From contig CM039467.1 of the NCBI GenBank assembly GCA_022414725.1, positions 15,680,128-15,744,127 on the forward strand: DNA of 64,000 bases, given 5' to 3'. Below are positions 259-50,352 of this stretch, one piece after another (the first letter of the stretch is position 1; each line of letters begins with the position of its first letter). The DNA comes from Microglena sp. YARC (lineage: Eukaryota; Chlorophyta; Chlorophyceae; Chlamydomonadales; Chlamydomonadaceae). The notes under the pieces were generated by a model. That model saw only the letters and a list, made by a program, of their open reading frames with translations. It had not been told where the DNA came from and ran no database searches. Position numbers and translations under genes: made by a program.

Positions 259-399
259 CGGAGTCATGAATCCACGCGACTGGAAAGTTGGAAGGTCATA
301 GAGACGTACAGCATCCTCATTCGAGTACACCAGCATCACCACGGGAGCTCCTTGGGCATCTAACGTTCCTTGCATGGTGATGATCCCAGGTCGAGGTCC
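259..399 (-). CDS. WD40 gene exon 9 (penultimate WD blade)
   Basis: Forty-seven codons, phase 0 at both ends, acceptor CACACACAG and donor GTAGGT. It encodes GAPVVMLVYSNEDAVRLYDL followed by PTFQSRGFMTP. This matches the plant ZFWD segment in which a blade ends in SVRLYDLPSF. The preceding exon ends in Arg-Arg-Arg and joins directly to Gly-Pro-Arg-Pro-Gly. The terminal blade seen in relatives is not in the window. Confidence 0.9.
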
Positions 400-3300
400 C
401 TGTGTGTGGAAAGTGAGAGCGTGTTTGTCTGCTTTCATGCTGTTTACAAAATAAAGTAAACACAAATGTTTAGTTGGTGTTGGTGCTTGAGGTGTGTTTG
501 TCTGCATTCATGTACACCAGCAACACCACGGGGGCTCATAGGGTGTCCAACGTTCCATGCATGACGACAATCCCAAAGTGAGCGCTTGTCATGGTTTGTA
601 TTAAAAAGAAGTATTTTATTGTATTTGTATGTTCTTATACTTTTGCTCCTTATGTTATTGCACGGGTGCTCCTTGGGCGTGGTAGTTCAGAACCTCTTAT
701 ATTAATATCGCTTTTGTCATTGGTGGTGTTTAGGGTGATTGGCTTGTTGTTATTGGTACTGGTGGTGGTGCTGGTGTTGGTACTGGTGGTGCTGGTGTTG
801 TTGTCGGTGTTGGTGCTGGTGTTGGTATTGGTGGTAGTAGTGTTGGTACTGGTGTTGGTGCTGTTGTTGTTGTTGTTGCTGTTGTTGTTGTTGTTGTTGT
901 TGTTGTTGATGGTGGTGCTATTGTTGGTACTGGTGGTGCTGTTGATGTTGTTGTTGGTGGTGCTGTTGTCTTTGTTGGTACTGTTGTTATTGTTACGGTG
1001 CTAGCACGAGGTCCCTGGGAGGTGGAAGTTCAGTACCTCAAATTCATATCGCTTTTGTCATTGGTGGTGTTTAGGGTGGTTGGCTTGTTGTTATTGGTAC
1101 TGGTGGTGGTGCTGGTGGTGGTACTGGTGGTGCTGTTGTTGTTGATGTTGTTGGTGGTGCTGTTGGTGGTACTGGTGGTGCTGGTGGGATTGTTGGTGGT
1201 GGCGCTGTTGTTGGTACTGGTGTTGGTGCTGGTGTTGGTACTGGTGGTGCTGTTGTTCGTATTGTTCGTGCTGGTGTTGGTACTGGTGGTGCTGTTGTTG
1301 GTATTGTTGGTGCTGGTGGTGCTGTTGTTGATGGTGGTGGTGATGGTGTTGGTACTGGTGGTGGTGCTGGTGGTAGTACTGCTGGTGCTGGCGTTGTTGT
1401 TGTTGGTGGTGCTGCTGTTGTTGTTGTTGTTGTTGTTGATGATGGTGGTGGTGCTGTTGTTTGCACTGGTGGTGCTGGTGGTGTTGTTGTTGGTGCTGGT
1501 GTTGTTGATGTTGTTGATGGTGGTGGTGCTGTTGTTGGCACTGGTGGTGCTGGTGGTGTTGTTGGTGGTGCTGGTGTTGTTGATGTTGTTGAAGGTGGTG
1601 GTGCTGTTGTTGGCACTGGTGGTGCTGGTGGTGTTGTTGTTGGTGCTGGTGTTGTTGATGTTGTTGATGGTGGTGGTGCTGTTGTTGGCACTGGTGGTGC
1701 TGGTGGTGTTGTTGGTGGTGCTGGTGTTGTTGATGTTGTTGAAGGTGGTGGTGCTGTTGTTGGCACTGGTGGTGCTGGTGGTGTTGTTGGTGGTGCTGGT
1801 GTTGTTGATGTTGTTGATGGTGGTGGTGCTGTTGTTGGCACTGGTGGTGCTGGTGGTGTTGTTGGTGGTGCTGGTGTTGTTGATGTTGTTGAAGGTGGTG
1901 GTGCTGTTGTTGGCACTGGTGGTGCTGGTGGTGTTGGTGGTGGTGCTGGTGTTGTTGATGTTGTTGATGGTGGTGGTGCTGTTGTTGGCACTGGTGGTGC
2001 TGGTGGTGTTGTTGGTGGTGCTGGTGTTGTTGATGTTGTTGAAGGTGGTGGTGCCGTTGTTGGTACTGGTGGTGGTGCTGTTGTTGGCACTGGTGGTGGT
2101 GGTGTTGCTGGTGTTGGTATTGCTGTTATTGTTGTTGTTGTTGTGGTTGCTGCTGTTTTGTGACGGTGGTAGTACGAGGTTCCTGGGAGGTGGAAGTTCA
2201 GTGGCGACGCATCATCAAAGGCAAAAGGGGGATGGGCCACAGCAAATACTATCATAGCAATAGCAGGTGCGAATAGCACTATTGCAAATGCCATCATTAC
2301 GAATAGCACCATTGCAAATGCCATCATTACGAATAGCACCATTGCAAATGCCATCATTACGAATAGCACCATTGCAAATGCCATCATTACGAATAGCACC
2401 ATTGCAAATGCCATCATTACGAATAGTACCATTGCAAATACCATTACCATCATTACGAATAGCACCATTGTAATTGCCGTCATTACGAATAGCACCATTG
2501 CAAATACCATTACCATCATTACGAATAGCACCATTGTAAATGCCATCATTACGAATAGTACCATTGCAAATACCATTGCCAACATTACGAATACCACCAC
2601 TGCAAATACCATTGCCATCATTACGATTACCACCATTGCAAATACCATTGCCATCATTACGAATAGCACCATTGTAATTGCCGTCATTACGAATAGCACC
2701 ATTGCAAATGCCATCATTACGAATAGCACCATTGCAAATGCCATCATTACGAAAAGCACCATTGCAAATGCCATCATTACGAATAGTACCACTGCAAATA
2801 CCATTGCCATCATTACGAATAGCACCATTGTAATTGCCATTATTACAAATAGCACCATTGCAAATACCATTACCATCATTACAAATAGCACCATTGTAAA
2901 TGCCATCATTACGAATAGTACCATTGCAAATACCATTGCCATCATTACGAATACCACCATTGCAAATACCATCATTAAAAAAGCAGTTGCGAAATAGTAA
3001 GCTGGGTTTGTCTTTTCGCATTTCCACCCATCTCACACTCACCCTCCGCCTCTGCTGCTGGTCTCCCTCCCCATCCTTGTCGAAGCAGAACTCTGGCTCG
3101 GTCTTGAGGACTGCCCCAGGTGCAGGGGTGTCCAGAATCTGCCACACCTTGACTTTTCCATCAAAAGATGCCGAAAGAACATAGCTCTGCAAGCATGTGA
3201 CAGGTTGGAATTTAAAAAAACAATTTATACATATAAATTATATGTATGGTTGGACATATATATATATACAAAATGTCCATCTCAAGATGCCGAAAGAACA

Positions 3301-6300
3301 TAGCTCTGCAAGCATGTGGTCAACTGGAATTTAAAACCTCAATTTACAGCCAATCTATATACATAAAAATGCCTATCCAGGGACATCAAAAGAGCATAGC
3401 TATGCAAGCATGTGATGAATTGGAATTAAAAATGTCATTTTTATATGTCCAACCGGAGGCGCCGAGAGTGCCTAGTTCTGCAAGCATGTGATCAATTGGA
3501 ATTTAAAACCCAATTTACAGCCAATGCATGTACATAAAATGTGTATCAAGAGATGCCGGAATAACATAGCTCTGCAAGCATGTGTTAATTGGAATTTATA
3601 ATCCCATTTTTTAAATGCCCAACCAGAGACGCTGAAAGAAAATTGCGTTGCAAGCAGGTGATCGGTTGAAATTAAAAACCCTATTCACAGCCATTTAATG
3701 TACATAAATGTGTATCCAGAGTCGCCGAAAGAACATACTTCTGCAAGCATGTGATCGATTGGAATTTAAAACCCCAATTTATATTCATAACAAAATGTGT
3801 ATTCAGAGATGCCGAAAGAACATAGCTCTGCAAGCATGTGATGGGTTGGAATTATAAACCCCAATTTATAGCCAATTTATGTACATACAAATGTTTATCC
3901 AAGGACGCCGAAAGAGCATAGCTCTGCAAGCATGTGATCATTTGGAATTTTAACCCCCAATTTACAGCCAATTAACAAACACAAAAATGTCTATCCAGGG
4001 ACGCCGAAAGAGCATAGCTCTACTATCATGTGAAGTTGTGGTGCTATTATTCCTATTATAGGAATGAACTGGACAAAACGATTCCACGAGAACTCGTACT
4101 TCGTAACTTGAAATCGAGACTTTTTGCCTGAAAATCCGAGTATCCTCGACAATTTTGATCGACGGAACCAAAAAGTACCAAACGTTTGTCCAGTTCATTC
4201 CCTGAATTGCTATAAGCATATTTCAATAGCTGTAAAGCAATGCATACAAGTAATCCATGTGTGGGTGTTTGTTTGTTTGTATGTGTGTATGCGTGTGTGT
4301 ACGCGTGTATGTGTGTGTATGCGTGCATGTTTGGGTTTATGGGTGTATGTATATGTGCGTGTATGTGTGTGTGTGTATGTGTGCATGTGTATGTGTGTAT
4401 GTGTGTATGTGCGTGTGTGTATTCGTGTATGTGTGCGTATGCGTGTAAGTGTGTGAGCTACATGGGTATATAGAGGCTGAAGGGATTTGCCAACCCAGAT
4501 TTATTAAGAATACTGTAACCAAACATAATCAGGATGGCCTTGCATCCCATATCCCGCCATCAACCACAACACCACAACGCATGTAACAAACTTACATCCT
4601 ATACCAAGAGCATCCCACCACAACATCACAAGCATGTAACAAACTTACATCCCATACTAAGAGCATCACAACACCACAACACCACACGCATGTAACAAAC
4701 TTACATCCCATACCAAGAGCATCACAACACCACAACATCACACGCATGTAACCAACTTACATCCCATACTAAGAGCATCACAACACCACAACATCACACG
4801 CATGTAACCAACTTACATCCCATACTAAGAGCATCACAACACCACAACATCACACGCATGTAACAAACTTACATCCCATACTAAGAGCATCACAACACCA
4901 CAACATCACACGCATGTAACAAACTTACATCCCATACTAAGAGCATCACAACACCACAACATCACACGCATGTAACAAACTTACATCTCAAACTAAGAGC
5001 ATCACAACACCACAACATCACACGCATGTAACAAACTTACATCCCATACTAAGAGCATCACAACACCACAACATCACACGCATGTAACAAACTTACATCT
5101 CAAACTAAGAGCATCACAACACCACAACATCACACGCATGTAACCAACTTACATCCCATACTAAGAGCATCACAACACCACAACATCACACGCATGTAAC
5201 CAACTTACATCTACTAAGAGCATCACAACACCACAACATCACACGCATGTAACCAACTTACATCCCATACTAAGAGCATCACAACACCACAACATCACAC
5301 GCATGTAACCAACTTACATCCCATACTAAGAGCATCACAACACCACAACATCACACGCATGTAAAACTTACATCCCATACTAAGAGCATCACAACACCAC
5401 AACATCACACGCATGTAACAAACTTACATCCCATACTAAGAGCATCACAACACCACAACATCACACGCATGTAACCAACTTACATCCATACTAAGAGCAT
5501 CACAACACCACAACATCACACGCATGTAACAAACTTACATCCCATACTAAGAGCATCACAACACCACAACATCACACGCATGTAACAAACTTACATCCCA
5601 TACTAAGAGCATCACAACACCACAACATCACACGCATGTAACCAACTTACATCCCATACTAAGAGCATCACAACACCACAACATCACACGCATGTAACAA
5701 ACTTACATCATACTAAGAGCATCACAACACCACAACATCACACGCATGTAACAACTTACATCCCATACTAAGAGCATCACAACACCACAACATCACACGC
5801 ATGTAACAAACTTACATCCCATACTAAGAGCATCACAACACCACAACATCACACGCATGTAACCAACTTACATCCCATACTAAGAGCATCACAACACCAC
5901 AACATCACACGCATGTAACAACTTACATCCCATACTAAGAGCATCACAACACCACAGCATGCATGTAACAAACTTACATCCCATACCAAGAGCATCACAA
6001 CACCACAACATCACACGCATGTAACAAACTTACATCCCATAATAAGAGCATCACAACACCACACGCATGTAACAAACTTGCATCTCAAACTAAGAGCATC
6101 ACAACACCACAACATCACACGCACGTAACAAACTTACATCTCAAACTAAGAGCATCACAACACCACAACATCACACGCATGTAACAAACTTACATCCCAT
6201 ACTAAGAGCATCACAACACCACAACATCACACGCATGTAACCAACTTACATCCCATACTAAGAGCATCACAACACCACAGCATCACACGCATGTAACAAA

Positions 6301-9300
6301 CGTACATCCCATACTAAGAGCATCACAACATCGAGCGCATGTAACAAACTTACATCCCATACCAAGAGCATCACACCACAACATCGAAAGCATGTAACAA
6401 ACTTACATCCCATACCAAGAGCATCACACCGCAACATCGAAAGCATGTAACAAACTTACATCCCATACCAAGAGCAGCACACCACAACATCGAACGCATG
6501 TAACAAACTTACATCCCATACCAAGAGCAGCACACCACAACATCGAACGCATGTAACAAACTTACATCCCATACCAAGAGCAGCACACCACAACATTGAA
6601 AGCATGTAACAAACTTACATCCCATACCAAGAGCAGCACAACATCAAGCGCATGTAACAAACTTACATCCCATACCAAGAGCAGCACACCACAACATCGA
6701 ACGCATGTAACAAACTTACATCCCATACCAAGAGCAGCACAACATCACAACGCATGTAACCAACTTACATCCCATACTAAGAGCTGCATAATTGGCTCCT
6801 TGGTCCGGTTGTCTCCATTTGAGTCCAAGCTCTGTACCACCTGACCAGAGCCTAGATCCCAGACCTGCATACCGTAGACAAGTATGTACGAATGAATAAG
6901 ATAATTTATATATATATATATTTATTATCCGAGTTATTATCTATATTATTATTATCTCTTATTATATATATTATTATTATCATTTAGATTTATGCTACAT
7001 AAATCTATGGATATAGATTTATGTAGCATCTTTGCATAGGCCTACGCATTTGGATTTGCATTTGCATCCTGTGTGTGTTTTGTTACCTTAACCTGTCTTA
7101 GGTCTTAGGCTAAAGGGACCTGTCCAACCTTGTGTATGTTGTTACAGTCCAGGAAAAGCCTAATAGGCTAAAGGGACTTGCCCAACCATGATATCAGAAG
7201 GGGCTGAAACAAGCCTAGATCCCAGACCTGCATACCGTAGGCAAGTATGTCTGAATGTGTGTATGTTTCATCTTTTCACAGGTCTAAGCATTTGAATTTG
7301 CATTTGCATCATGTGTGTGTTTTGTTACCTTTCTTCCTGTGGTATCATTTTGATGTATGTTGCTACAGTCCAGGGAAAGCCAAATAGGCTTAAAGGACTT
7401 GCCCAACCTTGTGTAAGTTGTAACAGTCGAGGGAAAACAGCTGATTGCCTACTCACCCACACCCACACACCCACACATCCTTGCAGGTACTGTCCTAGCC
7501 TGTGGGAACAAGGCTGTGCAGCTGATGATATAGGTCAGTACATGTATGTATGTTGTTACAGTCCAGGGAAAGCCAAATAGGCTGAGGGGACTTGCCCAAC
7601 CATGATATCAGAAGGGGCTGAAACGAAACAAAAACTGATGAACTGACCCCTGCCTACCTGTGTATTTTGTTAAACTACAGGGGCAGCCAAATAGGCTGAA
7701 GGGACTTGCCCAACCATGATATCAGAAGGGGCTTGAAAGAAAAAACACTGATGAATTGAGCCCCAAACAATTGTTCTAGCTACGGTGGCCTGAGTTTGTG
7801 CAACAGTGATAATTTAATTTTACGACAAGACAAGACATACAATAAGCTATATGTATATAGGGATTGGCATTTCATATGTATGTATGTTAAGTCTAGGGGT
7901 AGGCCACATAGGCTAAAGGGACTTGCGCAACCGTATAGAAAGGGCTTAAAAAGAACAAGCACTGGTCATATGCTATTGGCCAAAGGTGAGTATGATATCA
8001 TATGATACCAAACAACTTGCATCATATGATATTGTATTTAAATGGGTACTTTAGCCTAGTCAGACTGCCGGCATCATATGATATTGTATTTAAATGGGTA
8101 CTTTAGCCTAGTCAGACTGCCGGCATCATATGATATTGTATTTAAATGGGTACTTTAGCCTAGTCAGACTGCCGGCATCATATGATTTCATACTGCCGTT
8201 CCCTATATATGTACAAGTATGTACGTGTGATATACAGACAACTATGTACACGTGCTTTACTAACTACTGCGTACATGTGCTGTACATACAACTATGTACA
8301 CGTGCTTTACATACTACTGCGTACATGTGCTGTACATACACTGTGTACATGTGCTGTACATACAACTATGTACATGTGCTATACATACAACTGTGTACAT
8401 GTGCTGTACATACAACTATGTACATGTGCTATACATACAACTGTGTACATGTGCTGTGCATACAACTATGTACATGTGCTATACATACAACTGTATACAT
8501 GTGCTGTACATACAACTATGTACATGTGCTATACATACAACTGTGTACATGTGCTGTACATACAACTATGTACATGTGCTTTACATACTACTGCGTACAT
8601 GTGATGTACATACACTGTGTACATGTGCTGTACATACAACTATGTACATGTGCTATACATACAACTGTGTTCATGTGCTCGCCCTGACCTTGATGAATTC
8701 TTTCCCATCAGCAGAAAACATGAAGTTTCCTCTTATCTAATAATTATGGTTTTATGATGATGCTGATCTTTGCTGATGATACAATTTCCCTGGTGCCTTA
8801 CTGGACTCCAAACGTGACCGTACGATGAACATACAACTACGTGAGTGTGTGAGCGTGGTCCTGCCTTGATGATTCCTTTCTTGTTAGCAGGAAACATTGA
8901 GCTTCCTCGTATATAATCATTATAGTTTTATGATGATGCTGATGATTTAATTTCCCTGGTGCCCTAGTGGACTCCAAATGTGACCGCAGGATGAATATAC
9001 AACTACGTGAGCGTGTCAGTGTGGCCCTACCTTCATGATTCCTTATGAAACCCTAAACCCTAAACCACAGCGTGGCCCTACCTTGATGATTCCTTATAAA
9101 ACCATAATCCCTAAACCCCAGCGTAGCCCTACCTTGATGATTCCTTATAAAACCCTAATCCCTAAAGCCCAGCGCAGCCCTACCTTGATGATTCCTTATG
9201 AAACCCTAATCCCTAAAGCCCAGCGTGGCCCTACCTTGATGATTCCTTATGAAACCCTAATCCCTAAAGCCCAGCGTGGCCCTACCTTGATGATTCCTTA

Positions 9301-12300
9301 TGAAACCCTACACCCTAAAGCCCAGCGTGGCCCTACCTTGATGATTCCTTATGAAACCCTACACCCTAAAGCCCAGCGTGGCCCTACCTTGATGGTTCCT
9401 TATGAAACCCTACACCCTAAAGCCCAGCGTGGCCCTACCTTGATGATTCCTTATGAAACCCTACACCCTAAAGCCCAGCGTGGCCCTACCTTGATGATTC
9501 CTTATGAAACCCTAAACCCTAAAGCCCAGCGAGGCCCTACCTTGATGATTCCTTTCCTGTCGGCGGAAAACATGAAGTTTCCTCCTATTAAATAAGTATG
9601 GTTTGCTGCTGCTGCTTCTGCTGCTGATAATGATGATGATAACCTTTTCCTGGCGCTCTACTGGACTCCAAATGTGACCGTTCGATGATCATACAACTAC
9701 GTGAGTGTGTGAGCGTGCTCCTACCTTGATGATTCCTTTCCTGTCAGCAGAAAACATGAAGTTTCCTCCTATCTGGAGAGCATGCACTGGAGCATCGTGT
9801 CCCCCATCGTCCTTGGTGATGATGGCCTATAGCAGTTGTGGAGGTGAGTTAGGCATTACGGGGGTGTGATGTGTGTACGGGTGTGTATGTGTATGTTTGT
9901 GTGGTGATGATGGCCTATGGGGGTTGTGGAGGTGAGTTAGGCATTTTGGGGTGTGATGTGTGTATGGGGTGTGTATGGGGTGTGTATGGGGTGTGATGTG
10001 TGTACAGGTGTGTACGTGTGTGTATGTGGTGATGATGGCCAATAGCGGTTGTGGAGGAAAGCATGTTTGGGTAGCGGTTGTGGAGGAAAGAATGTATGGG
10101 GTGTGTAGGAGGTGCGCATGTGTATGTGGTGATGATGGTATATAGCGGTTGCGGAGGAAAGCAGGTTTGGGTACGGGCTTTGTGGAGTTCAGGGGGGGAC
10201 TCTTGGGAACAATGGTTTTGGGATCCCACAAGGCATACGTTGGTGCATTCCACATTTGTGGCATCTCATCTGGCATATGTTGGTGCATCTCACATTACTG
10301 GCATCCCACATTTCCGGCATAAGTTGGTGTGTCTCACATTTCTGGCATCTCACCTGTGACATATAGATAGCTGCTTGTGCATTGAAGCTCCACACACCAA
10401 TTGTGTTGTCAGCACCAGCACTAGAACAAGCCCATCACCTAGATGTATAGAGGTATGCACACAAGTTTCCATACGCTATGCAACCAGATTCCTGGCATAA
10501 GTTGGTGCATCCCACCAGGCATAAGCTGGTGCATCCCACATTTCTGGCATCTCACCTGTGACATAAAGATAGCTGCTTGAGCATTGAAGCTCCACACACC
10601 ATTTGTGCTGTCAGCACCAGCACCAGCACCAGCACCACACAGCACCAGCACCAGCTCCACACAACATTTGTGCTGTCAGCACCAGCACCAGCACCACACA
10701 GCACCAGCACCAGCTCCACACACCATTTGTGCTGTCAGCACCAGCACCAGCACCAGCACCACACAGCACCAGCACCAGCTCCACACACCATTTGTGCTGT
10801 CAGCACCAGCACCAGCACCACACAGCACCAGCACCACACAGCACCAGCATCAGCACCAGCTCCACACACCATTTGTGCTGTCAGCACCAGCACTAGAACA
10901 AGCCCATCACCTAGATGTATGGAGGTATGCACACAAGTTTCCATACACTATGCACCTAGATTCCTGGCATAAGTTGGTGCATCCCACATTTCAGGCATCT
11001 TACCTGTGACATAAAGATAGACGCTTGTGCATTGAAGCTCCACACACGAATTGTGTTGTCAGCTCCGGCACTGAAGAGAGCGCCTGAGGCAGTGACCATG
11101 GTCATGACTTCACCCTGGGGTGAATGAATAACTGATTAGTTGATGAGTTAGTTAGTTGGTTAGTTGATTAGTTGGTGAATATCAGTGCAAGCATGCCAAA
11201 GGCAGTGACCATGGTCATGACTTCACCCTGAGGTGAATGAATAACTGATTAGTTGGTGAGTTGGTTAGTTGGTTAGTTGGTGAATATCAGTGCAAGCATG
11301 CCAAAGGCAGTGACCATGGTCATGACTTCACCCTGAGGTGAATGAATAACTGATTAGTTGGTGAGTTGGTTAGTTGGTTAGTTGGTGAATATCAGTGCAA
11401 GCATGCCAAAGGCAGTGACCATGGTCATGACTTCACCCTGAGGTGAATGTATAACTGATTAGTTGGTGAGTTGGTTAGTTGGTGATTTGGTTAGTTGGTG
11501 AATATCAGTGCATGCAAGCCGAAAGGTAGTGACCATGGTCATTATTTCACCCTGAGATGAAGAATGAGATGGTGAATGAATGAACAACTGATTCGTTGTG
11601 TAGTTGGTGTGCTGGTGAATATCTGTGCATGAATGCCGAAAGGTAGTGAACAAGGTCATGATTTCACCCCGAGGTGAAGAATGAGGCGGTGAATGAATGA
11701 ATAACTGATTAGTTGTGTAGTTGGTGTGCTGGTGAATATCTGTGCATGAATGCCGAAAGGTAGTGACCATGGTCATGATTTCACCCTGAGGTGAATGAAT
11801 AACTGATTAGTTGGTTAGTTGGTTAGTTGGTGAATATCAGTGCAATCATGCTGAAAGGTAGTGACCATGGTCATGCTTTCACCCTAAGGTGAATGAATAA
11901 CTGATTAGTTGGTGAATATCTGTGCATGAATGCCGACAGGTAGTGTTCATGGTAATGATTTCACCCTGAGGTGAAGAATGAGGCGGTGAGAGGATAACTG
12001 ATTAGATGTGTAGTTGGTTAGTTGGTGAATATCAGTGCATGCATGCGGGAAGGTAGTGACCATGGAAACAATTTCAACCTGAAATAGAGGGCAACGTTTT
12101 GGTGAATAGTTGGTGAATATCTGTGCATGCAAGCCAGAAGGTAGTGACCATGGACACCATTTCACCCTGAAATCAAGGGCAACGTTTTGGTGAATAGTTG
12201 GTGAATATCTGTGCATGCAAGCCAGAAGGTAGTGACCATGGACACCATTTCAACCTGAAATAGAGGGCAACGTTTTGGTGCATATCTGATTAGTTGATTA

Positions 12301-13347
12301 GTTCTTTAGCTGTTAAGTTGGTGAATATCAGTGCATGCATGTGGACAGGTAGTGAACATGGACATAATTTCAACCTGAGGTGAAGAATGAGGTGGTGAAT
12401 GAATGACTGGTTAGTTGTTTATATGGTGTGTTGGTGAACAGCTGGTTAGTTGGCTAGTTGGTTAGTTGGTGAATATCTGCGCATGCATGCCGAAAGGTAG
12501 TGGCCATGGTAAGGATATTGCCCTGAGATGAAGAACAACGAAGTAGTGGATAACTGGTAAGTTGTGGTTGGCCCCAATGCAAGCAAACGGAAGGGGGGAT
12601 ACTGCTTATATCAACGATTCATCTCCCTGTGCGCCGTCTGATGTGTTTATGTCACATTTCTTGCTGGTTGGTTGGCCCCAGTGCAAGCAAACGGAAGGGG
12701 GGATACTGCTTATGTCAACAGTTCATCTCCCTGTGCGCCGTCTGATGTGTTAATGTGTCACATTTCTCGCTGGTTGGTTGGCCCCAGTGCAAGCAAACGG
12801 GCTGGCCCCCTCAAGTCTCGTCATAATTACTACTATTTATATATTTCACTGGTGAGTTGCGGTTGGCTCCAGTGCATCAGTAGAATACAGTCTGGCGGTA
12901 GCGGAACTCCCGCACAAAGCAAAGCACCTGATTCGACATTTGATGAGTTGTCCAACAGAGATCTTCCAGCTATTAGCAGAGAGTCCAGCTCAACTCTAAC
13001 CCCACACCCAAATACACCCACCCTGTGCCCAGGAAGCTCCCGCAGCCATGTCCCAGATCTATATGATGCCCTCACTTGTTCCCCCCCACCCCCACCCCTC
13101 CCCTAAATACACCCACCCTGTGCCCAGGAAGCTCCAGGAAGTTGGTGGCTAGCTCCAGTGGACATGTCCCAGATCTTCATAATGCCGTCTCCTACTTTCC
13201 GCATTCATACAAACAGGTATCCTCCAGATATGAGCGTAGAGTCCAGCTCAACTCTAACCCCACGGCTAAATACACCCACCCTGTGCCCAGGAAGCTCCAG
13301 TGGGCATGCCCCAGATCTTTATGATGCCCTGACTTGTTCCCCCCCCC

Positions 13348-13395
<48 letters not shown>

Positions 13396-13593
13396 CCCCC
13401 TAACTACACCCACCTTGTGCCCAGGAAGTTGGTGGCTAGCTCCAGTGGGCATGCCCCAGATCTGTATGATGCCCTCACTTCTCCCCCCCCCACCCCCCCC
13501 CCCCCCCCTAAATACACCCACCTTGTGCCCAGGAAGTTGGTGGCTAGCTCCAGTGGGCATGCCCCAGATCTTTATGATGCCTCACTTGTTCCC

Positions 13594-13624
<31 letters not shown>

Positions 13625-13845
13625 ACCCTAAATGCACCCACCTTGTGCCCAGGAAGTTGGTGGCTAGCTCCAGTGGGCATGCCCCAGATCTGTATGATGC
13701 CCTCACTTCTCCCCCCCCCCCCCCCCCCCCCTCCCCCTAAATACACCCACCTTGTGACCAGGAAGTTGGTGGCTAGCTCCAGTGGACATGCCCCAGATCT
13801 TTATGATGCCCTCACTTGTTCCCCCCCCCCCCCACACACACACAC

Positions 13846-13880
<35 letters not shown>

Positions 13881-14209
13881 TACACCCACCTTGTGCCCAG
13901 GAAGTTGGTGGCTAGCTCCAGTGGGCATGCCCCAGATCTTTATGATGCCTTCACTTCTTCCCCCCCCCCCCCCCCCCTCCCCCTAAATACACCCACCTTG
14001 TGCCCAGGAAGTTGGTGGCTAGCTCCAGTGGACATGTCCCAGATCTTTATGATGCCCTCATTTGCTTTCCGCATGCCTACGAACAGGTATCCTCCAGCTA
14101 TGAGCAGAGAGTCCACCTCACCGCCGATGTCCACACTGCTAGTACACTGTATTTGTGAGTCATGTTTAGTTTAGGTGAGTACACTGCATGTGTGTGGTTG
14201 TGCATATTT

Positions 14210-14257
<48 letters not shown>

Positions 14258-15586: not shown

Positions 15587-15624
<38 letters not shown>

Positions 15625-19914: not shown

Positions 19915-20060
19915 CCCGCAGCAGAATCAAAATTTCAAAAGCAGAGCAGCTCGATAGGATTGGTAAAAGGGGCTGGTGTAGTTTCGTTCACTTCTCGCGC
20001 AACCAATCGCTGCTTGGCGCGCAATTAGACAGAGTAGGAACTGTGGAGAAGTCATGTCAG
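19915..20060 (-). promoter_or_regulatory. Probable promoter/5' leader of the WD40 gene
   Basis: GC-rich, CpG-containing, low-copy sequence just upstream of the ATG, unlike the repeats around it. On the minus strand it contains GCGATTGGTTGCGCGAG, with an ATTGG (inverted CCAAT) box about 80-100 bp from the start. No TATA box was found. Assignment rests on position and base composition. Confidence 0.4.
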
Positions 20061-24680: not shown

Positions 24681-24753
24681 GTGGCCGTACCTTCTATCTC
24701 CAGGCGCTCGATGCGTGTGGTGGCCAAGGCAACTGCCCATGCAGAGCTCTCCG
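24681..24753 (+). CDS. PPL1: PsbP-like exon: chloroplast transit segment
   Basis: Twenty-four codons plus one base, acceptor CCATATGCAG and donor GTAGGTTC. It encodes VAVPSISRRSMRVVAKATAH then AELS: basic, Ser/Ala-rich and without acidic clusters, as in stroma-targeting peptides. It joins the next exon as Gly/Ala codon G+CC. The upstream exon with the true start was not found, so the 5' frame is inferred from the downstream phase. Confidence 0.75.
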
Positions 24754-35530: not shown

Positions 35531-35564
<34 letters not shown>

Positions 35565-38500
35565 TTTTTTTGTAAATTCCGTATTTCATTTTGAAACTAG
35601 CAATTAAGGCACTGAATGAACATTATAGACTGTTCACATAGCCTACTCGGAGTCCCAGCAACATCAACCCCTTGGTACTTGACGATGAAGCACTGGATTA
35701 CCATGGACCCTTTTGGTTCTTTAAAGCAAACCGTTACCCATTTTTTTTTTCCATCCTATTATTCTATCTAAAATTCTCTCTCCTAATCAAGGCCTCATCT
35801 TGAACCCCACTTACAACATTTATTCCAGGAATTCCTCTCTTTTTACCAGTAGCAATCAGCTCCTACCCCCGCTATCATTAATTAAGGCACGGGTAAAACA
35901 ATAATGTTGAGCCACCGCTCTGCCAACATCACCACCACCACCGCCATACCACCAACCCCCACTACTAACAACAAACAACCACCCAGCACAACCACCCACC
36001 TGCCAACCACACCCACACACAACGCCACCACACCCCACCGCCAACATACCGCTACACACCACCAACAACACACACCACCCACCCCAACCAACAACATTCC
36101 ACATCTCTAAACCTGCATGCGCTCGTCTCAGCCCCCGCTCCACTCCGTTCCTCTTCTTTTGAGGACTTCAACATAACATTTGGAGCCACACGGAGTCCTC
36201 CACACCATTTCAACCACCACCCACCGCACATTACACCGCACCACCAACAACACCACCACCCACAACACAACCTCCACTTTACTAACAACACGCCACCAAC
36301 AACCCCCAACCCACCACACCAAAAACCACCCATCTACAACCCCCGCCCTCTTCCTTTGACTTCAACAACAACTACCCGCACCACCAACCCCCATCCACCA
36401 CGAACCCCCATCCACCAACAACACCCACCCACCACCAACCAACACAACCCCCACTGACCAAACAAAAACCACCCACTACCCCGCCCACCAACAACCACCC
36501 ACCAACCAACAACCAACCACCACCACCAACCAACAACACCCCACCACACCAACAACCACCTGCCAACCAACCCACCACCCAACAATCCAACCTGCACATC
36601 TCCAAACATGATACGCAGCCCCCGATAGTTCCTCTTCTTTTGAGGACTTCAACAATATAGTTTGAGCAACATTAACCACCACCAACAACAACTACACCCA
36701 CCAACCAACCACCAACAGCAATGCGCAGCCCCAGCATTTTCCTATGCTGATGAAAACTTGAACGATAAAGGTTGGAGCCTACACGAGTCCCATACATCAA
36801 ACCACCACCAACAATAACACCCACCAACACACCAAAACAAACGTGCAGGCCCCCGCTGGTTTTTCTGCTTATGAGGACTTGAACGACGGATACAAGTTCC
36901 TCTACCCCTTCGGATGGCAGAGAATCTCCATCAAGGGTGCTGACATAGTCTTCTCTTCAAGGTTGGTAATTCTGTTATTTGCTTGGCACATTTTATAACG
37001 TTGAATATCTTGAACTTGAATACTCTCTTTACCTTCTCTATAGCTACCTTCTCTGTTGCTACCTCCATCAAGGGTGCTGACGTTGTCTTCATGGTTGGTC
37101 AGGCTTATTATTTGTTTGGTCGTATATTATGATGTTTGGATACCTTCTCTACACATTCTCTATATATACCCTCTGTATTGCTACCTCCTCTACTGCTACC
37201 TTCTCTGTACCTTATCTAAAGCTACCTTCTCCATACCTTTTCTACTGCCACCTTCTGTATACCTTCTCTGTACCTTATCTATAGCTGCCTTCTCTATACC
37301 TTCTCTACTGCTACGTTTTCTTATATGTTCCTTATCTATAGCTACCTTCTCCATACCTTCTCTACTGCTACCTTCTCCATACCTTATCTATTGCTACCCC
37401 ATCTGTACCTTATCTATAGCTACCTTACATATACCTTATCTCCCACCCATGCACCCTCAACTCACCCCACACATACTCCTACCCCTGCCCCAATCACCTC
37501 ACTTCACCCGACACCCATCCCCTTCCCCATGACCTTCCCCACCCCCATCCTCATTCCCATGTGTGAGGTGAAGTGAGCTGCAGGGGCACGGGGTTGGAGT
37601 ATGTGTGAGTGAAGTGAGATTAGGGCGCAGGGTTGGAGTATGTGTGGTAAAAGTGAGTGCCGGGCAGGGGTTGGAGTATGTGTGGGGTGGAGTGAGTGAG
37701 GGGGCAGGGTTTGGAGTATGTGTGAGGTGAAGCAAGGTGAGGGGGCAGGGTTTGGAGTATGTGTGAGGTGAAGCAAAGGTGAGGGGGGCAAGGGGTGGGA
37801 GTATGTGTGAGGTGAAGTGAGGTGAGAAGGCAGGGGTGGGATTTGGATGGGACCACTCGAAGGGCCACATGAGAACCGCGTTCGGTCTGTGGAGCCGGTC
37901 CAATTCAGCTAAGGCATTTTGAGCACGATATGTTGGATGATCTGTAGAGATCCAACATACCATCTGATTGATACCATTTTGCGCGGGAAGATCAACTTGT
38001 TCAAGAGCAAGGCTGACATCAGCGAGTTAAGTGACATTGACTATGTACTGTATCATGTCTAGCTATCTCTAACATTAACTAAATCCCATTTTGTACCGCT
38101 TCATGTCTGCCTAGACTGTCCATCTAAGAGGATGCCCGATATGCTGTCCGTAGGACGTCATGGAGGCCCTGGAGTCAGTCAGTGTGACCATGATTGACAC
38201 TGGCAAGGCTGACATTGGCGAGTTTGGTGACATTGAATATGTACTGCATCATGTCTACCTATCTCTAACATTAATTAAATCCCATTTTGTACCGCTTCAT
38301 GTCTGCCTAGACTGTCCATCTAAGAGGATGCCCAACACAACTCCAACACCACTCCAACCACGCATCAATAGGCTGTTTTGTAGGACGTCATCGAGGCCCT
38401 TGAGTCGTCAGTGTGACCATCATATGACACTGGCAAGGCAGACATCAGCGAGTTAGGTGACATTGAATATGTTGCATCATGACTGCCTATTTCAACTTTA

Positions 38501-40813
38501 AATTAAAGCCCAACTTGTACCGCTTCATGTCTGCCTAGACTGTCTATTAACAAGGATGCCAACACCAGTACCGCGACAGCAACAACCAACTCAAACATAT
38601 GCTGTTTGTAGGACGTCATCGAGGCCCTTGAGTCCGTCAGTGTGACCATCATTGACAAAAGCTGACAAGGCTGACATCAGCGAGTTCGGTGACATTGAAC
38701 CTGGTCTTGGCGAGACCCTTGCCAAGAATGTGCTCGTCCTCCCCCTAACCAGGAGGTCAAAGCTAATCAAGACCGTCGAGGTGAGTTGGCCCTGAAAAAT
38801 GTGTTCATTGGTCATATCATTTCGGGCCCAGCTAGACCCAGCCAGACCTGTCATTGCCTCAACACTTCCATGGAGGGGCCTCACACTTCCATGGAGGGGA
38901 AGCTTGATCAGCAGGGGGGGGGGGGGGGAGGGGGGGGGGGGGGGGCTGGAGCAAGGGGGACTGTCGAGGGTGAGTTGGGCCCTGACAAGTCTATGCGTGT
39001 TGCGAGCGACGCTAAAAAATAGGCGGAAAGGTATATGCGACGGAGCGACCAGGTGGCAACGGTAGTGGAGTTTAGTACGAGAACCGTTGGCTGACAATGT
39101 CAGGCTTTGTTGTTCTCGGTCAGACAAGTCGGTTGGTCAGACAGGATAATGGGTAACCTGGGAAAATGTTCAATGTAAAGTCAAAGTCGAATTCATATGG
39201 GCGTTTCTTCAATTCATTTAAATTTCAATTATCTCAGTGCTAACTGAAAGTCAACTTCACATATGGTTATCTCTTAATGTAAGGCAAATTCAAATCACCA
39301 AATTCACTAAATGGCTTATCTCATCAATATAAAGCAAAGATTCAGTATCTACTCACATTTGGCTATTCTTCATGTTTAGACTAATTTCAATTATCTTATC
39401 AATGATCTCAGTCACTTCAATACGGCTTATTTTCTCTTCAATGCAAGGCAATTTCAAATTTAGACCACTTCACCTAATGGCTTATCTCATCAATATAAGG
39501 CAGATTCGGCAATCTATTCATATGACTTGTCTCTCTTCAATGAAGGGCAAATGTCAAATCTTATTTCATCAATTCGTTAATCGAAGTCACTTCATTGGGG
39601 CATATTCTCTTCACATGTAAGGCAAATTTCAAATTCACCACAATTCACTGTATGGCTTATTCTCATCATTATAAATGCAGATTCAGTAATATACTACATT
39701 TGGCTTATCTCTTCAATTAAGGTAATTTCAAATCACCAATTCAATCATTGGCTTATCTCTTCAATTGTTTTCAAATTTCTGTGACGACTTGCTTTTGCAG
39801 AGGAAAGACGAGAACGAGAAAAATGTGCAGTACAGTCCATGTGCAGTACAATTATTGGTCATCCAGTTCACATAATTCAAATTTGAATTCATATGTGTGA
39901 TCTCCTCAATCCATTTAAATTTGCAGATGAAAGGCGAGAATGAGCGCAAGTACTATGAGCTTCTATGTTAAACGCAGCCAACCTCTGCCTTTCAATCTGT
40001 TTTTCAAATTTCAAATTATCTCATCAATGCAACTCTACAGTCAACTCCACGTGGCTCATCCTTCAATATGTTTAAAATTTCTGTGACAAATTACTTTCTT
40101 TTGCAGGAAAGACGAGAAGTAGGAGCGCAAGTACTAGAGTTCGAGTTCACCCGCAGCCGAACCCCGGCTTTTAATTGTTTTCAAATTTCACCAAATCATC
40201 TCATCAATGCAACTTAAGTCAACCTCAATATGACTTAATATCTTTAATTTGTTTTCAAAATTTCTATTGACTCCTTGTTCTTCTGCAGAGGAAAAAGACG
40301 AGAACGAGCCTCGAAGTACTTACGCAGTTCGAGTTCACACGCAGCCAACCCTGGGCTACCACGCGCACCAAGTCAGCGTTGTGTCCGTCTCAATGGTAAG
40401 TCTTGGTTCTTGGGCTCCACACAACATCAGTTGTCTGCGGTGGCAAGCAGCAGCCATGGGAACACTGCCTTACCTTAGTTGTCTTCTACCAGAACTATTT
40501 GTGTTTTATGAGCTTGTGTTTTATGAGATTTGGGTTCCAACTGCGGTTGCTTTGTCGTGCTGTGGTTAATGCGCTTGAGCTCCACAAGATATACTCTTGG
40601 TCAGGCAAAGCAAAGCGTGGAACCAACCGTTAGTTTCTTCTAACCAGTGCTATTTGTGTTTTATGCGCTTGGGTCTACAGCTAGGTTTGATATATGCACT
40701 TAGACCCCACAGGAAGATCTCTTGTCAGCAGGCAGCGAGGGAACGCACCCACATAGTTTCTTCCTTCCTATTGCAATTTGTGTTTTAATGCGCTCGAGGG
40801 TTTTACCTGCTAT

Positions 40814-40847
<34 letters not shown>

Positions 40848-49800: not shown

Positions 49801-50352
49801 CATCCATCCGTACCCATCCATGCAAACCCACCTACCCATCCACACCCATTCATGCACACCCATCCATACCCATCCATCCGTACCCATCCATGCAAACCCA
49901 CCTACCCATCCACACCCATTCATACCACCATCCATACCATGGGTTCGGCCATCCAGACGGATCCATGCAAACCCACCTACCCATCCACACCCAATTCATT
50001 GCAACACCCATCCATACCCATTTGGGTCCAGCGTACGGAGCATCCATGCAAACCCACCTACCCATCCACACCCATTCATGCACACCCATCCATACCCACC
50101 CATCCATCCGTACCCTTCTACCCATCAACACCCACGCCATTCCATGCACAGGCAAATTCTTTCACCTCACACACTGGGTCCAGCGAGAGGAGGTGGGGCA
50201 AGATGCAGCCTAAGCTGGAGAATTCCATCCACTCTTTCCTTCTGACCAGTAATGGGAAACGGGAGCGAGATGATGCATGCAGCCCACTGCCCATGCTTTT
50301 CACTGTGGAAACACATATTTTTGATAATTTTTTGCCCTACAGAGTTGTGTAA
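24681..50352 (+). CDS. PPL1: PsbP-like thylakoid lumen protein (PPL1 type), six recognised exons, first exon not found
   Basis: Exons at 24681-24753, 26273-26355, 36849-36965, 38612-38780, 40289-40395 and 50152-50352. The protein has a basic stroma-targeting segment, then SRRQVLQTSAASAAAVFLPT ending LPAMAK, a twin-arginine lumenal signal with Ala-x-Ala-like cleavage site. The mature part shows GFSAYEDLNDGYKFLYPFGW, DVIEALESVSVT, KYYEFEFT and SSERRWGKM, in the order of plant PPL1 (YAFLYPFGWQ, DVIEPLESVSV, YYQFEFT, NERRWEKM). In plants PPL1 acts in the lumen in photosystem II repair (family knowledge). The gene spans 25.7 kb. Exons 4-6 carry indels, so this copy as assembled does not translate cleanly; sequencing error is more likely than decay because all splice sites survive. 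AATAAA lies at 50,475. Confidence 0.85.
24754..25100 (+). repeat. Copies of the transit exon 3' end and donor, with GT/G tracts
   Basis: Three more copies of ggccaaggcaactgcccatg, cagagctctc and ggtaggttctgctttt at 24,809, 24,889 and 24,978, separated by tgtgggggt-type sequence and a G tract at 24,957-24,979. The donor GGTAGGTT is intact in every copy. Confidence 0.92.
25101..25600. other. Intron sequence with family E repeat
   Basis: Mostly low-copy. Family E lies at about 25,270-25,370 (cagccttcaggctgcccaat, cagtataaacactatcatac). The remainder shows no coding signal. Confidence 0.5.
25605..25860. repeat. Family A repeat and ACAATTACC tandem repeat
   Basis: Family A at 25,605-25,695 is the clearest copy: gccccagtgcaagcaaacag, ctcaacctcacgcctcataa and a tttatttatttatt tail. 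Then about 8 copies of cacacaattaccat-like 17-mers at 25,750-25,855. Confidence 0.8.
25861..26272 (+). repeat. Copies of the twin-arginine exon acceptor and start
   Basis: The acceptor and exon start tctcttgcgcagccatgagc followed by aggaggcaggtgctcc occurs at 25,912, 26,003, 26,130 and, for real, at 26,261, with extra half copies beginning gcagccatgagctggaggcg at 26,050 and 26,179. Linkers are ccaccaccaacacccac repeats. Several copies keep the two Arg codons. Confidence 0.92.
26273..26355 (+). CDS. PPL1: PsbP-like exon: twin-arginine lumen signal
   Basis: Acceptor TCTTGCGCAG. It encodes AMSRRQVLQTSAASAAAVFL then PTLPAMAK: Arg-Arg, a hydrophobic Ala-rich core and a small-residue cleavage site, the layout of thylakoid Tat signals. 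Phase 0 into exon GCCCCCGCTGG requires the exon to end at AAG. Here AAG is followed by GGTGGG, whereas two downstream partial copies read AAG/GTTGGG; the exact donor is therefore uncertain. Confidence 0.85.
26356..26570 (+). repeat. Copies of the Tat exon 3' end and donor
   Basis: Partial copies at 26,415-26,465 (ttgcctactttgcctgccat, then gaccaaggttggg) and 26,525-26,560 (tgcctattttgcctgccaca, then cccaaggttgg). They keep a regular AAG/GTTGG donor, unlike the full-length exon. Confidence 0.85.
26601..26658. repeat. Hairpin of about 24-bp arms
   Basis: tatctccataagtgccttag pairs with taggcacctatggagata, with a centre of about 20 bp. Possible small MITE. It sits in the long intron of the PsbP-like gene. 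Confidence 0.6.
26806..26885 (+). repeat. tRNA-like fragment, possible SINE head
   Basis: gggttcgaatccctac matches the tRNA T-arm/pol III B box (GGTTCGAATCC). About 35-40 bp upstream, atggcaggtgtactg resembles an A box. The acceptor stem does not close and the anticodon loop is too long, so this is not a tRNA gene; a tRNA-derived repeat is more likely. Confidence 0.4.
26985..27235. repeat. Family D interspersed repeat, copy 1
   Basis: Contains tttcttctagcttaatggtt, ttaggcgtcctccagggaca, ctttttagggccattaaggg and a tatatatagcgggaataaaa end. Copies 2 and 3 lie at 27,570-27,775 and 57,600-57,845 in the same orientation. Confidence 0.75.
27236..27569. other. Intron sequence with an unassigned frame
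   Basis: A frame ending at 27,406 encodes CMEYIFDENVRDHFRDFLKE and GAPGCLEGATSSLCGG. It looks protein-like but has no family match by eye and no splice context; it could be the extended body of the family D element. Confidence 0.25.
27570..27775. repeat. Family D interspersed repeat, copy 2
   Basis: ttcttctagctcaatggttt, aggcctcctccagggacagc, ttacagcgataatttcgcta and tatatatagcggaaataaaa in the same order as copy 1. Confidence 0.75.
27776..28265. other. Intron sequence with a hairpin at 28,129-28,192
   Basis: Mostly low-copy. Inverted repeat: caggattcatgttcagttat at 28,129 pairs with ataactaaacatgaatcctg ending at 28,192, arms about 26 bp. The hairpin loop contains gcatgctttca, the motif that the adjacent 78-bp satellite repeats. 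Confidence 0.55.
28285..35270. repeat. 78-bp satellite array, about 88 copies
   Basis: Unit: gaaggcatgctttcataact, ttcattatgacattcgtgaa, attcgtaactttcattttga, aagcatagcatagcatgt. Copies at 28,285-29,600 are varied (attcataa and attcgcaa variants, shortened units); 29,600-32,400 is nearly homogeneous; from about 32,400 random one-base indels appear and by 34,800-35,270 the array breaks down. The 78-bp length equals 26 codons, so frames run open on the minus strand without coding meaning. It lies in the intron between the Tat exon and the first mature-protein exon. Confidence 0.97.
35271..35880. other. Scrambled satellite edge, poly-T run and low-copy intron
   Basis: 35,271-35,530 contains broken satellite fragments mixed with other sequence, then a run of 30 T at 35,533-35,562 and 8 more after one A. 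This is probably a poor join in the assembly or a low-accuracy read. 35,580-35,880 has no recognisable feature. Confidence 0.6.
35881..36848 (+). repeat. CCA/ACC-rich array with copies of the exon 36,849 acceptor side
   Basis: Long caccaccaac-type linker with four decayed copies of the exon start: 36,134-36,195 (cctcttcttttgaggacttc), 36,345-36,365, 36,618-36,680 (ttgaggacttcaacaatata) and 36,722-36,800 (atgctgatgaaaacttgaac). Each matches the part of the exon that encodes AYEDLND. Divergence is high. Confidence 0.8.
36849..36965 (+). CDS. PPL1: PsbP-like exon: start of the PsbP fold
   Basis: Acceptor AAACGTGCAG. It encodes APAGFSAYEDLNDGYKFLYP then FGWQRISIKGADIVF, the hallmark N-terminal strand of PPL1-type PsbP domains. 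With donor GTAATTC at 36,966 the exon adds SSRL and keeps phase 0 into the next exon. A ghost copy at 37,066-37,100 reads GACGTTGTCTTCATGGTTGG, which suggests an ancestral end VVFK/GTTGG; the extra TCTTC here would be an insertion or a sequencing error. Confidence 0.88.
36966..37440 (+). repeat. Ghost copy of the exon 3' end, then a pyrimidine-rich repeat
   Basis: A copy of ctccatcaagggtgctgacg followed by ttgtcttcatggttgg sits at 37,063-37,098. From 37,140 to 37,440 about 15 copies of a 20-bp unit such as ctaccttctccataccttct follow. Confidence 0.85.
37441..37850. repeat. Inverted pair of GGGGTTGGAGTATGTGTGAG-type repeats
   Basis: 37,455-37,560 is C-rich (cccacacatactcctacccc). 37,563-37,830 contains about 6 copies of a 45-50-bp unit with ggggttggagtatgtgtgag, the complement of the former. 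The two halves could fold into a long imperfect hairpin. Confidence 0.7.
37985..38611 (+). repeat. Three tandem copies of the DVIEALESVSV exon with intron
   Basis: Unit of about 225-235 bp. Copy at 38,000-38,045 (partial), 38,155-38,240 (open: DVMEALESVSVTMIDTGKAD then IGEFGDIEY) and 38,394-38,475 (one-base gaps). Each is preceded by ttgtaggacgtcat-like acceptor in the fuller copies and followed by catgtctgcctagactgtcc intron. Confidence 0.9.
38612..38780 (+). CDS. PPL1: PsbP-like exon: DVIEALESVSV segment
   Basis: Acceptor CTGTTTGTAG, donor GTGAGTTGG. It starts DVIEALESVSVTIID, continues KADISEFGDIEPGLGETLAK after a frame break, and ends with KLIKTVE after another. The plant family has DVIEPLESVSVNLVP, then the -IAETLIKKVLAPPNQ region. 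The breaks are acaaaagctgac where ghost copies read acactggc, and a base shift near aggaggtcaaagct. These could be read errors or true damage. Confidence 0.82.
38781..39175. repeat. Poly-G tract and inverted family F element
   Basis: Runs of G at 38,917-38,944. Short copies of the donor side follow (gtcgagggtgagttgggccc at 38,963). 38,996-39,150 is the inverted counterpart of 20,370-20,545 (gcgacgct, cggagcgacc, aaccgttggctgacaatgtc). Confidence 0.65.
39176..39785. repeat. Degenerate short tandem repeat of about 65-75 bp
   Basis: Repeated motifs ggcttatctc, ttcaaattcaccaa and catcaatataaggca occur about nine times with heavy divergence. Leads into copies of the next exon. Confidence 0.7.
39786..40288 (+). 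repeat. Three decayed copies of the KYYEFEFT exon
   Basis: Copies start at 39,800 (ttttgcagaggaaagacgag), 39,925 (ttgcagatgaaaggcgagaa, then cgcaagtactatgag) and 40,106 (tttgcaggaaagacgagaag, then cgcaagtactagagttcgag). Units are about 125-180 bp. Compared together they give a consensus RKDENERKYYEFEFTRSQP. Confidence 0.88.
40289..40395 (+). CDS. PPL1: PsbP-like exon: YYEFEFT segment
   Basis: Acceptor TTCTTCTGCAG, donor GTAAGTCTT. The intact parts encode KDENE, a diverged KYY, FEFT and, after a base shift, GYHAHQVSVVSVSM. The plant family reads YYQFEFT, then a YTRHAL-ITV stretch. At least two indels relative to the consensus of the neighbouring copies. It is the last of four copies and the only one with a complete 3' end and donor. 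Confidence 0.8.
40396..48585 (+). repeat. 111-bp satellite array, about 73 copies
   Basis: Unit: tgatgcgcttgggctctaca, gctaggttgcctaatgcgct, tggaccccacatgatatact, cttggtcagcagcagtgtgt and gtagtttcatctgcctgtat. It starts right after the donor of the YYEFEFT exon; the first units (40,396-41,300) and last units (48,350-48,585) are divergent, with agcgagggaaccac variants. Dense random indels in the middle indicate low accuracy. A G tract lies at 40,806-40,862. Confidence 0.96.
48586..50151 (+). repeat. 70-bp C-rich minisatellite with acceptor-like ends, about 22 copies
   Basis: Unit: gcaaacccacctacccatcc, acacccattcatgcacaccc, atccatacccatccatccgt, acccatccat. The real acceptor reads cattccatgcacag/gcaaattc; each unit contains cattcatgcacaccc and begins gcaaaccc, so the array seems to derive from the acceptor region. 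Open frames on both strands are repeat artefacts. Confidence 0.93.
50152..50352 (+). CDS. PPL1: PsbP-like last exon
   Basis: Acceptor CCATTCCATGCACAG. In one frame it starts KFFHLT, and after one base shift reads TGSSERRWGKMQPKLENSIH then SF. The plant family reads NFYTLTTGANERRWEKM then VVDSFKI and stop. As read, the frame continues to TAA at 50,350-50,352, about 34 residues longer than the family; a one-base gap would give a TGA right after SF at about 50,251. The conserved ERRW-KM helix is diagnostic. Confidence 0.87.
   Translation, partial: ANSFTSHTGSSERRWGKMQPKLENSIHSFLLTSNGKRERDDACSPLPMLFTVETHIFDNFLPYRVV

Follow-up and report, generated by a model that had tools for sequence, protein, structure and literature searches.

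Tandem arrays carrying copies of exon-intron junctions in the introns of two neighbouring genes

Repeats at exon-intron boundaries have been reported for segmentally duplicated human genes, together with 27 intron modifications (De Grassi and Ciccarelli 2009, PMC2812944). For the RdRp gene of potato, a new intron is described as the product of a tandem duplication spanning an intron-exon boundary, with reference to the Rogers model (PMC4974935). In Chlamydomonas and Volvox, the density of tandem repeats (TRs) is reported to be highest in introns and raised towards the intron ends, with abundant GT/AC motifs (PMC3887541). Zebrafish introns with dinucleotide repeats at both ends are mentioned in a review (Lin et al. 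2016, cited in PMC9198270). Here, a related arrangement is described for one sequence, a 64,000-nt stretch of contig CM039467.1 (the window, meaning the whole stretch analysed), which is judged from its protein homologs to be nuclear DNA of a green alga. It carries two neighbouring genes, gene A encoding a WD40 protein and gene B encoding a PsbP-like protein, and in both of them most exon borders are copied in tandem within the adjoining intron. A literature search covering titles and abstract openings returned no report of an alga whose introns consist mainly of junction-containing arrays.

The analysis was based on 27 exon borders set by tblastn of homologous proteins and by exact splice contexts. 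The donor of exon A1 is tentative, and the unsettled 5' border of A2 stands outside the 27. Each border was searched with an 80-nt query centred on it, and matches on the same strand within 10 kb with E<=1e-3 and at least 10 nt on each side of the border were accepted. Further junction copies were found at 18 of the 27 borders, 122 copies in total, and the number of borders was likewise 18 at a threshold of 1e-5. Gene A accounts for 107 copies at 11 of its 16 borders, and gene B for 15 copies at 7 of 11 (Table 1). The claim of the initial annotation that most borders adjoin junction-containing repeats therefore stands for both genes with borders fixed by homology. The gene B counts are less certain than those of gene A since the later part of the window looks poorly polished. 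In the better polished part (gene A, B2 and B3), 15 of 20 borders are copied. No copies were found by the main search at the A1 donor, A3 acceptor, A8 donor, A9 acceptor, A9 donor, B5 donor, B6 acceptor, B6 donor and B7 acceptor. A second search with other settings added one copy of the B6 acceptor, a weak B7 match 811 nt off and an exon-only A9 copy without a splice site, none of which were counted. The counts vary with the settings, for example 40 versus 30 copies for the A7 donor and 9 versus 7 for the A8 acceptor.

All 122 copies lie in the intron bounded by their own border or, for the B2 acceptor, in its upstream flank. A search of the whole window on both strands gave only one additional match, a weak one in a C run at 58,048. 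The arrays consist of head-to-tail direct repeats, as do minisatellites (variable number tandem repeats, VNTR) with their units of ~10-100 bp or more; a few borders have a single further copy (A7 acceptor, B4 donor). Units that overlap exon and intron and include the splice site, the configuration of the De Grassi type, occur at 18 of the 27 borders. The reach into the exon is mostly 13-88 nt, differs by border and is largely common to the copies within an array, as expected from one founding duplication per array. In the longest array, at the exon-7 donor, an intact GAT/GTAAGT (slash, splice site) is present at 38 places. With hand-drawn array extents, ~64 % of the intron DNA of gene A (introns 2-8) and ~8 % of that of gene B lie within junction arrays. 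The junction arrays are real and striking in their density. The copy numbers given initially hold within a few copies, apart from the A5 acceptor, where 12-13 rather than 15 were found. The copies of the A6 and A7 acceptors, missing from that list, have to be added. An array repeating exon 3 as a whole was not found: its copies comprise the last 80 of 96 nt and the donor, and lack the first 16 nt and the acceptor.

The copies appear to have lost their coding constraint while many remain recognizable as splice sites. In the exon parts of the gene A copies, 318 substitutions were counted, comprising 73 synonymous, 239 nonsynonymous and 6 stop changes. The neutral expectation is 25.5/70.9/3.6 %, and the resulting p=0.30 is a rough value since copies share the history of their array. 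The exon parts therefore look neutral. The rates at the three codon positions are unequal (0.152/0.090/0.105, chi-square p 7e-5), which, given a neutral synonymous fraction, is read as shared array history. Of 81 donor copies, 75 still have their GT, and of 43 acceptor copies, 30 still have their AG, with the reservation that copies are not independent, in line with the initial suggestion that decoy splice sites remain in the introns. Five of the 13 AG losses fall in the exon-4 acceptor array; two others, at B4, and two of the six GT losses, at the B3 donor, arise because the border position is ambiguous by one base. Among 105 decoys of gene A, 11 are without GT or AG, 88 would add a stop codon and 6 are open and in frame. 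Thus, 88 of the 94 with a usable splice site are predicted to bring a stop codon into the message. All six open decoys belong to the exon-2 donor array, the sole such array of gene A. The 63-bp unit of this array is open in the frame of the gene, and use of its decoys would add 21-residue repeats, so that protein forms with 0-7 additional units are predicted.

In seven arrays, the divergence between copies and the functional junction is 2-35 %, apart from a single outlier of 53 %, so that the copies are not assembly duplicates of one segment. In four of the seven arrays, neighbouring copies are closer to each other than to the functional junction: the A2 donor (mean neighbour identity 0.95; identity to the functional junction 0.78-0.90), the A6 donor (0.93; 0.65-0.67, one 0.84), the A7 donor (0.93; 0.81-0.91, one 0.47) and the A4 acceptor (0.86; 0.72-0.80). 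Growth there appears to have taken place mostly within the array. The A8 acceptor array shows neither this pattern nor one related to the distance from the border.

The explanation given the most weight here, and considered probable rather than firm, is ordinary local tandem duplication, tolerated across borders since the exon-adjacent copy continues to be used. The introns would have grown mainly by local tandem duplication of segments of ~25-230 bp, presumably through slippage or unequal exchange. A duplication crossing a border would be nearly harmless, as the junction next to the exon would keep working and the rest would turn into intron. Exon edges together with GT or AG would be carried into the intron, lose their coding constraint and multiply as minisatellites, and every border-crossing event would move the intron outward from its end. 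Selection would purge duplications within exons and those severing needed splice context. The copy next to the exon is presumably the one that is spliced. Recognition by exon definition is suggested because the internal exons of 73-169 nt lie between introns of 1.2-10.5 kb.

This explanation is supported by the confinement of the copies to the adjoining intron, their neutral exon parts, the exon reach shared within arrays, the similarity of neighbouring copies in four of seven arrays, the higher TR coverage of introns than of intergenic DNA, and the precedents in potato, human genes and green algae. Two observations favour such random duplication filtered by splicing and coding. Protein-changing duplications within exons are almost absent: 84 of 284 exon-interior points have copies, but a copy within the same exon exists for just one of them, in the RGG-rich exon 1. 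Furthermore, units at acceptors contain more intron sequence (median 81.5, n=10) than units at donors (47.5, n=8, p=0.006), as expected if the exon-adjacent copy had to retain the branch point and the pyrimidine tract. For this comparison, unit and reach lengths were read by hand, taking the predominant period in arrays of variable spacing; the B6 acceptor was part of the set, whereas the A5 donor, being irregular, was not.

The introns also show a consistent polarity of composition. In all 12 introns with firm borders (400-50151), the sequence changes from G/T-rich to A/C-rich, with a mean keto skew of +0.209 in the first and -0.258 in the last 500 nt or half. This difference is significant (Wilcoxon p=0.0005) and was never matched in 5,000 intron rotations; GC skew and TA skew are each consistent in 11 of 12 introns. 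Removing dinucleotide and single-base runs leaves values of +0.149/-0.250, again in 12 of 12. The tentative intron 1, outside the 12, is without this polarity (-0.26/-0.11). Since intergenic 500-nt blocks span -0.44 to +0.34, it is the constant orientation of the intron skew that is unusual, not its size. Similar values were found directly beside the exons, with a mean of +0.20 for intron nt 7-45 after 14 donors and -0.25 for nt -45 to -4 before 13 acceptors. The skew is positive in 9 of 9 donor arrays and negative in 8 of 10 acceptor arrays. Intron DNA outside the junction arrays has a weaker polarity (+0.05/-0.12), seen in 6 of the 7 introns that retain 150 nt or more per half, five introns having been dropped. 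Pairing between the ends of an intron was considered as a cause of the polarity and is unsupported: by RNA duplex energy, an intron's own end ranked 5, 2, 6, 3, 9, 11, 4, 1, 10, 5, 9 and 12 of 12, and 5':5' duplexes were stronger still.

Whether duplications are tied to the borders depends on how the question is asked. The initial annotation had proposed a comparison of borders with shuffled positions. At the level of single sites, random intron points (400 per gene) are duplicated more often (0.86; 0.858 in gene A, 0.855 in gene B) than borders (0.67). Intergenic points reach 0.28 and exon-interior points 0.30. By distance, the duplicated fraction is 0.33-0.41 at 30-60 nt inside the exon, 0.67 at 0 to +20, 0.56-0.59 at +30 to +40 (15-16 of 27 versus 18 of 27) and 0.85 at +100; repeat coverage thus has no clear peak at the junction. 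TR coverage amounts to 0.61-0.64 in introns and 0.14-0.20 in two intergenic stretches. This site-level test is biased towards the intron interior because the arrays inflate the interiors that random points sample. A collapse of introns by union-find was also tried and dropped, since it over-merged microsatellites (A-i3 to 19 positions, B-i6 to 77). Its figures, which spoke for a border excess in both genes (p_c 0.195-0.229; binomial P 3e-6 for gene A and 0.013 for gene B), were discarded.

Several results weigh against local duplication without any preference for junctions. For a founder simulation, each of 34 arrays, with lengths and units curated by hand, was shrunk to one unit and given one founder, and 20,000 draws were made; the 18 junction arrays of this set include the B6 acceptor and exclude the B2 acceptor, whose intron was not modelled. 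With uniform founders on the collapsed introns, 6.9 junction-spanning arrays (standard deviation 2.1) are expected and 18 of 34 were observed (P printed 0.0000). For arrays with three or more copies, 15 of 30 compare with 5.6 expected (P 0.0000). The expectation depends on the ancestral intron length: 20.1 for 150 nt, 16.9 for 200 nt (P 0.40), 14.4 for 250 nt (P 0.11), 12.6 for 300 nt (P 0.03) and 10.1 for 400 nt (P 0.002). Random placement therefore fits only if ancestral introns were ~250 nt or shorter. Two arrays, those of the A4 donor and the A5 acceptor, have their closest matches to the functional junction right beside the exon (0.93-0.98 and 0.95-0.96), and similarity falls with distance (Spearman -0.70, p=0.052, and -0.63, p=0.091), as expected from repeated copying off the border. 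In addition, the polarity in 12 of 12 introns is not predicted by tandem duplication without a further step. These results would suit growth seeded at the junctions, e.g. by R-loops or pausing at borders, with introns built from both ends, a reading regarded as rather unlikely at present. Its other support is the polarity itself, which resembles the skews of the donor and acceptor flanks and has the matching sign in most arrays, and which is weaker outside them. It fits growth from the intron ends without proving such growth. However, repeat coverage does not peak clearly at borders, the excess of junction arrays disappears with ancestral introns of 150-250 nt, and detection is probably biased because junction copies are easier to find, their exon side being conserved in the functional copy. 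Moreover, the skew is reversed at 4 of the 14 donor flanks and at 4 of the 13 acceptor flanks, and only two genes are concerned. A two- to three-fold preference for junctions is possible but not proven. Accordingly, the initial proposal that introns grow from arrays seeded at splice junctions stands in part: the introns did grow to a large degree from arrays that include an exon edge, and seeding at the junctions was not shown. The fuller version, in which introns grow from both splice sites, G/T-rich donor units making up the 5' half and A/C-rich acceptor units the 3' half while a tolerant, exon-defining spliceosome ignores the decoys, is likewise doubted more than believed.

Other explanations receive less weight. 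Selection on composition or decoys could produce the same polarity if a G/T-rich 5' part and an A/C-rich 3' part avoided early acceptors and late donors, or enabled pairing of the ends. The persistence of the polarity without simple runs and the more frequent loss of AG than of GT, counted over copies that are not independent, are consistent with this, and avoidance of premature AG is reported for Drosophila and other eukaryotes (PMC10946897). Nevertheless, pairing between the two ends of one intron is no stronger than between ends taken from different introns, and donor copies mostly retain GT, so that these decoys are not being purged; this explanation is considered improbable. An assembly artefact of long-read consensus is more improbable still. 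Arrays from 41 kb onwards mostly contain 12-20 % indels and the frame is broken in B4-B7, as such an artefact would produce, but exons 3-9 of gene A are open in frame and their arrays hold diverged copies. The EukProt model P0017 also contains several exon-2 donor units, though it possibly derives from the same or a related assembly. Introner-like mobile elements, which insert introns with their own splice sites, could account for repeated splice sites at many intron ends. Yet each family holds the sequence of one exon only, 122 of 123 matches are confined to the adjoining intron, the exception being the weak one in a C run, and within the window no family extends across many unrelated introns. 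This last explanation is therefore given hardly any credence.

Table 1. Coordinates of the junction arrays and exons in the window. Copies are further junction copies in the main search unless stated otherwise.
Feature	Position	Strand	Junction copies	Details	Evidence
Exon-8 acceptor array	3187..4040	minus	9	mostly 27-30 nt of exon	
Exon-7 donor array	4550..6768	minus	40	56-bp unit, 20-23 nt of exon (mostly 23)	
Exon-6 donor array	8650..9724	minus	12	mostly 51-bp unit; 14 or 48-50 nt of exon	
Exon-6 acceptor array	9827..10160	minus	3	13 nt of exon	
Exon-5 donor array	10300..11003	minus	3	exon-only copies in addition	
Exon-5 acceptor array	11115..12560	minus	12	28-33 nt of exon, spacing mostly 82-117 bp	
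Exon-4 donor array	13000..13996	minus	8	67-145 nt of exon	
Exon-4 acceptor array	14147..14910	minus	8	20-28 nt of exon; AG intact in 3 of 8	
Exon-3 donor array	14921..15950	minus	5 (6 with other settings)	last 80 nt of exon and donor	
Exon-2 donor array	16732..17206	minus	6 (7 in another count)	63-bp unit, mostly 23 nt of exon	
Gene A exon 9	259..399	minus		donor 258/259; gene runs on past window start	tblastn, P0001 100 % and other homologs
Gene A exon 8	3043..3186	minus			tblastn, splice contexts
Gene A exon 7	6769..6864	minus	acceptor 1	further acceptor copy at ~7227	tblastn, splice contexts
Gene A exon 6	9725..9826	minus			tblastn, splice contexts
Gene A exon 5	11004..11114	minus			tblastn, splice contexts
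Gene A exon 4	13997..14146	minus			tblastn, splice contexts
Gene A exon 3	15951..16046	minus			tblastn, splice contexts
Gene A exon 2, 3' part	17207..17242	minus		5' border unsettled	tblastn
Gene A exon 1, RGG-rich	19485..19915	minus	none	donor tentative	
Gene B exon B2	24681..24753	plus	acceptor 2, donor 3	acceptor copies upstream, donor copies downstream	
Gene B exon B3	26273..26356	plus	acceptor 3, donor 2	twin-arginine signal	
Gene B exon B4	36850..36961	plus	acceptor 2, donor 1		
Gene B exon B5	38612..38780	plus	acceptor 2	acceptor copied with 88 nt of exon	
Gene B exon B6	40289..40395	plus	none	frame broken; one acceptor copy 187 nt upstream under alternative settings	
Gene B last exon B7	50152..50252	plus	none	repeat array (48.6-50.1 kb) adjoins	

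The best named protein matches of the window are from green algae, mostly Chlamydomonadales, and its GC content is 33-52 % per 2 kb, lower than the 53-54 % reported for two sequenced snow algae. Gene A lies on the minus strand from 19,915 to past the window start and has a Pfam WD40 match (E 5.6e-20). Gene B, on the plus strand at ~24.7-50.25 kb, matches PF01789 (E 1.5e-37), has a twin-arginine signal, and its product is 48-56 % identical to its ten best homologs. Two EukProt models, P0001 and P0017, align with gene A over long stretches at 94-100 % and are probably from the same species as the window, as this similarity suggests. P0001 covers exons 4-7 and 9; P0017 matches at 100 % over residues 1-98 and at 88 % in its repeat part, where it reads several exon-2 donor units as protein, fewer than in the window. 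In P0017, exon 1 is read in a frame other than the MADRYY frame. The two models appear to split the single gene A. Exons 3-9 of gene A (259-16046, minus strand) have lengths of 96, 150, 111, 102, 96, 144 and 141 nt, all in phase 0 with an open frame. Because the lengths are multiples of three and the borders are in phase 0 on both sides, each of these exons could be skipped without a frameshift, and exon 8, missing from P0001, is an example of such frame-neutral skipping. In gene B, the frame is broken in exons B4-B7, and the B4 acceptor has one base more than the frame permits.

The region from ~41000 to 64000 and, more mildly, from ~32000 looks like poorly polished long-read sequence, given the indels in its arrays and the broken frame of B4-B7, unlike gene A. 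Intron 3 of gene B contains a 78-bp array of ~83 copies (28707-35250), near-identical at 29.7-31 kb, which lies away from exon borders. At 58359-63978 on the plus strand, there is a 5.6-kb G/T-rich array whose unit includes a donor-like ACCG/GTAAGTGATTG, with 22 matches at <=1 mismatch, 17 of them exact. This could be the donor array belonging to a third gene, the exon of which was not recognised. By eye, several occurrences of a dispersed element with an A/T-rich tail and a core resembling CCAGTGCAAGCAAACGGGCTGGCC were seen (12660-12845, 25612-25690, 55078-55160); at a guess, the element could be a short interspersed nuclear element (SINE); its 24-base core has no matches in viral and prokaryote contigs.

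The arrays offer a concrete route for intron lengthening, in which border-crossing duplications stay hidden from selection because one junction is enough. They also raise a testable question, namely how the spliceosome selects a single site when up to 40 near-identical ones lie close by. Such loci can mislead gene predictors: P0001 and P0017 appear to split gene A, and P0017 reads decoys as protein. Should the polarity and the excess of junction arrays prove to be genome-wide, intron composition would be tied to the mode of intron growth. If growth from both splice sites were true, the G/T to A/C polarity would be inherent to the introns, which would also hold a reserve of decoy splice sites.

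Compared to the known systems, the arrays resemble the human boundary minisatellites (PMC2812944), which are likewise internal tandem repeats at boundaries that alter introns and splicing there. The human units are reported as ~30 bp with four copies on average, whereas in the alga 18 of 27 borders in two neighbouring genes are affected, with up to 40 copies and ~64 % of the gene A intron DNA. As in the potato RdRp gene (PMC4974935), a duplication covers the end of an intron on its 3' side together with the beginning of the exon, and splice signals are inherited; that report concerns a new intron, whereas in the alga existing introns grow and the copies look unlike exons. Dense repeats in introns, more of them near intron-exon junctions, are shared with Chlamydomonas and Volvox (PMC3887541). 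Exon sequence within the units is not among the features found reported there, and here units of ~25-230 bp form arrays of up to several kb. Introners (PMC9860276) are also repeats tied to introns and occur in diverse eukaryotes, whereas each family here is restricted to a single border and contains sequence of the exon concerned. The zebrafish introns (PMC9198270) share the opposite composition or repeats at the two intron ends, but the polarity in the alga persists without simple runs, and pairing of an intron's own ends is not favoured. Taken together, the locus is a strong variant of known phenomena, namely the boundary repeats of human genes, the boundary-crossing duplication of potato and the repeat-rich intron ends of algae.

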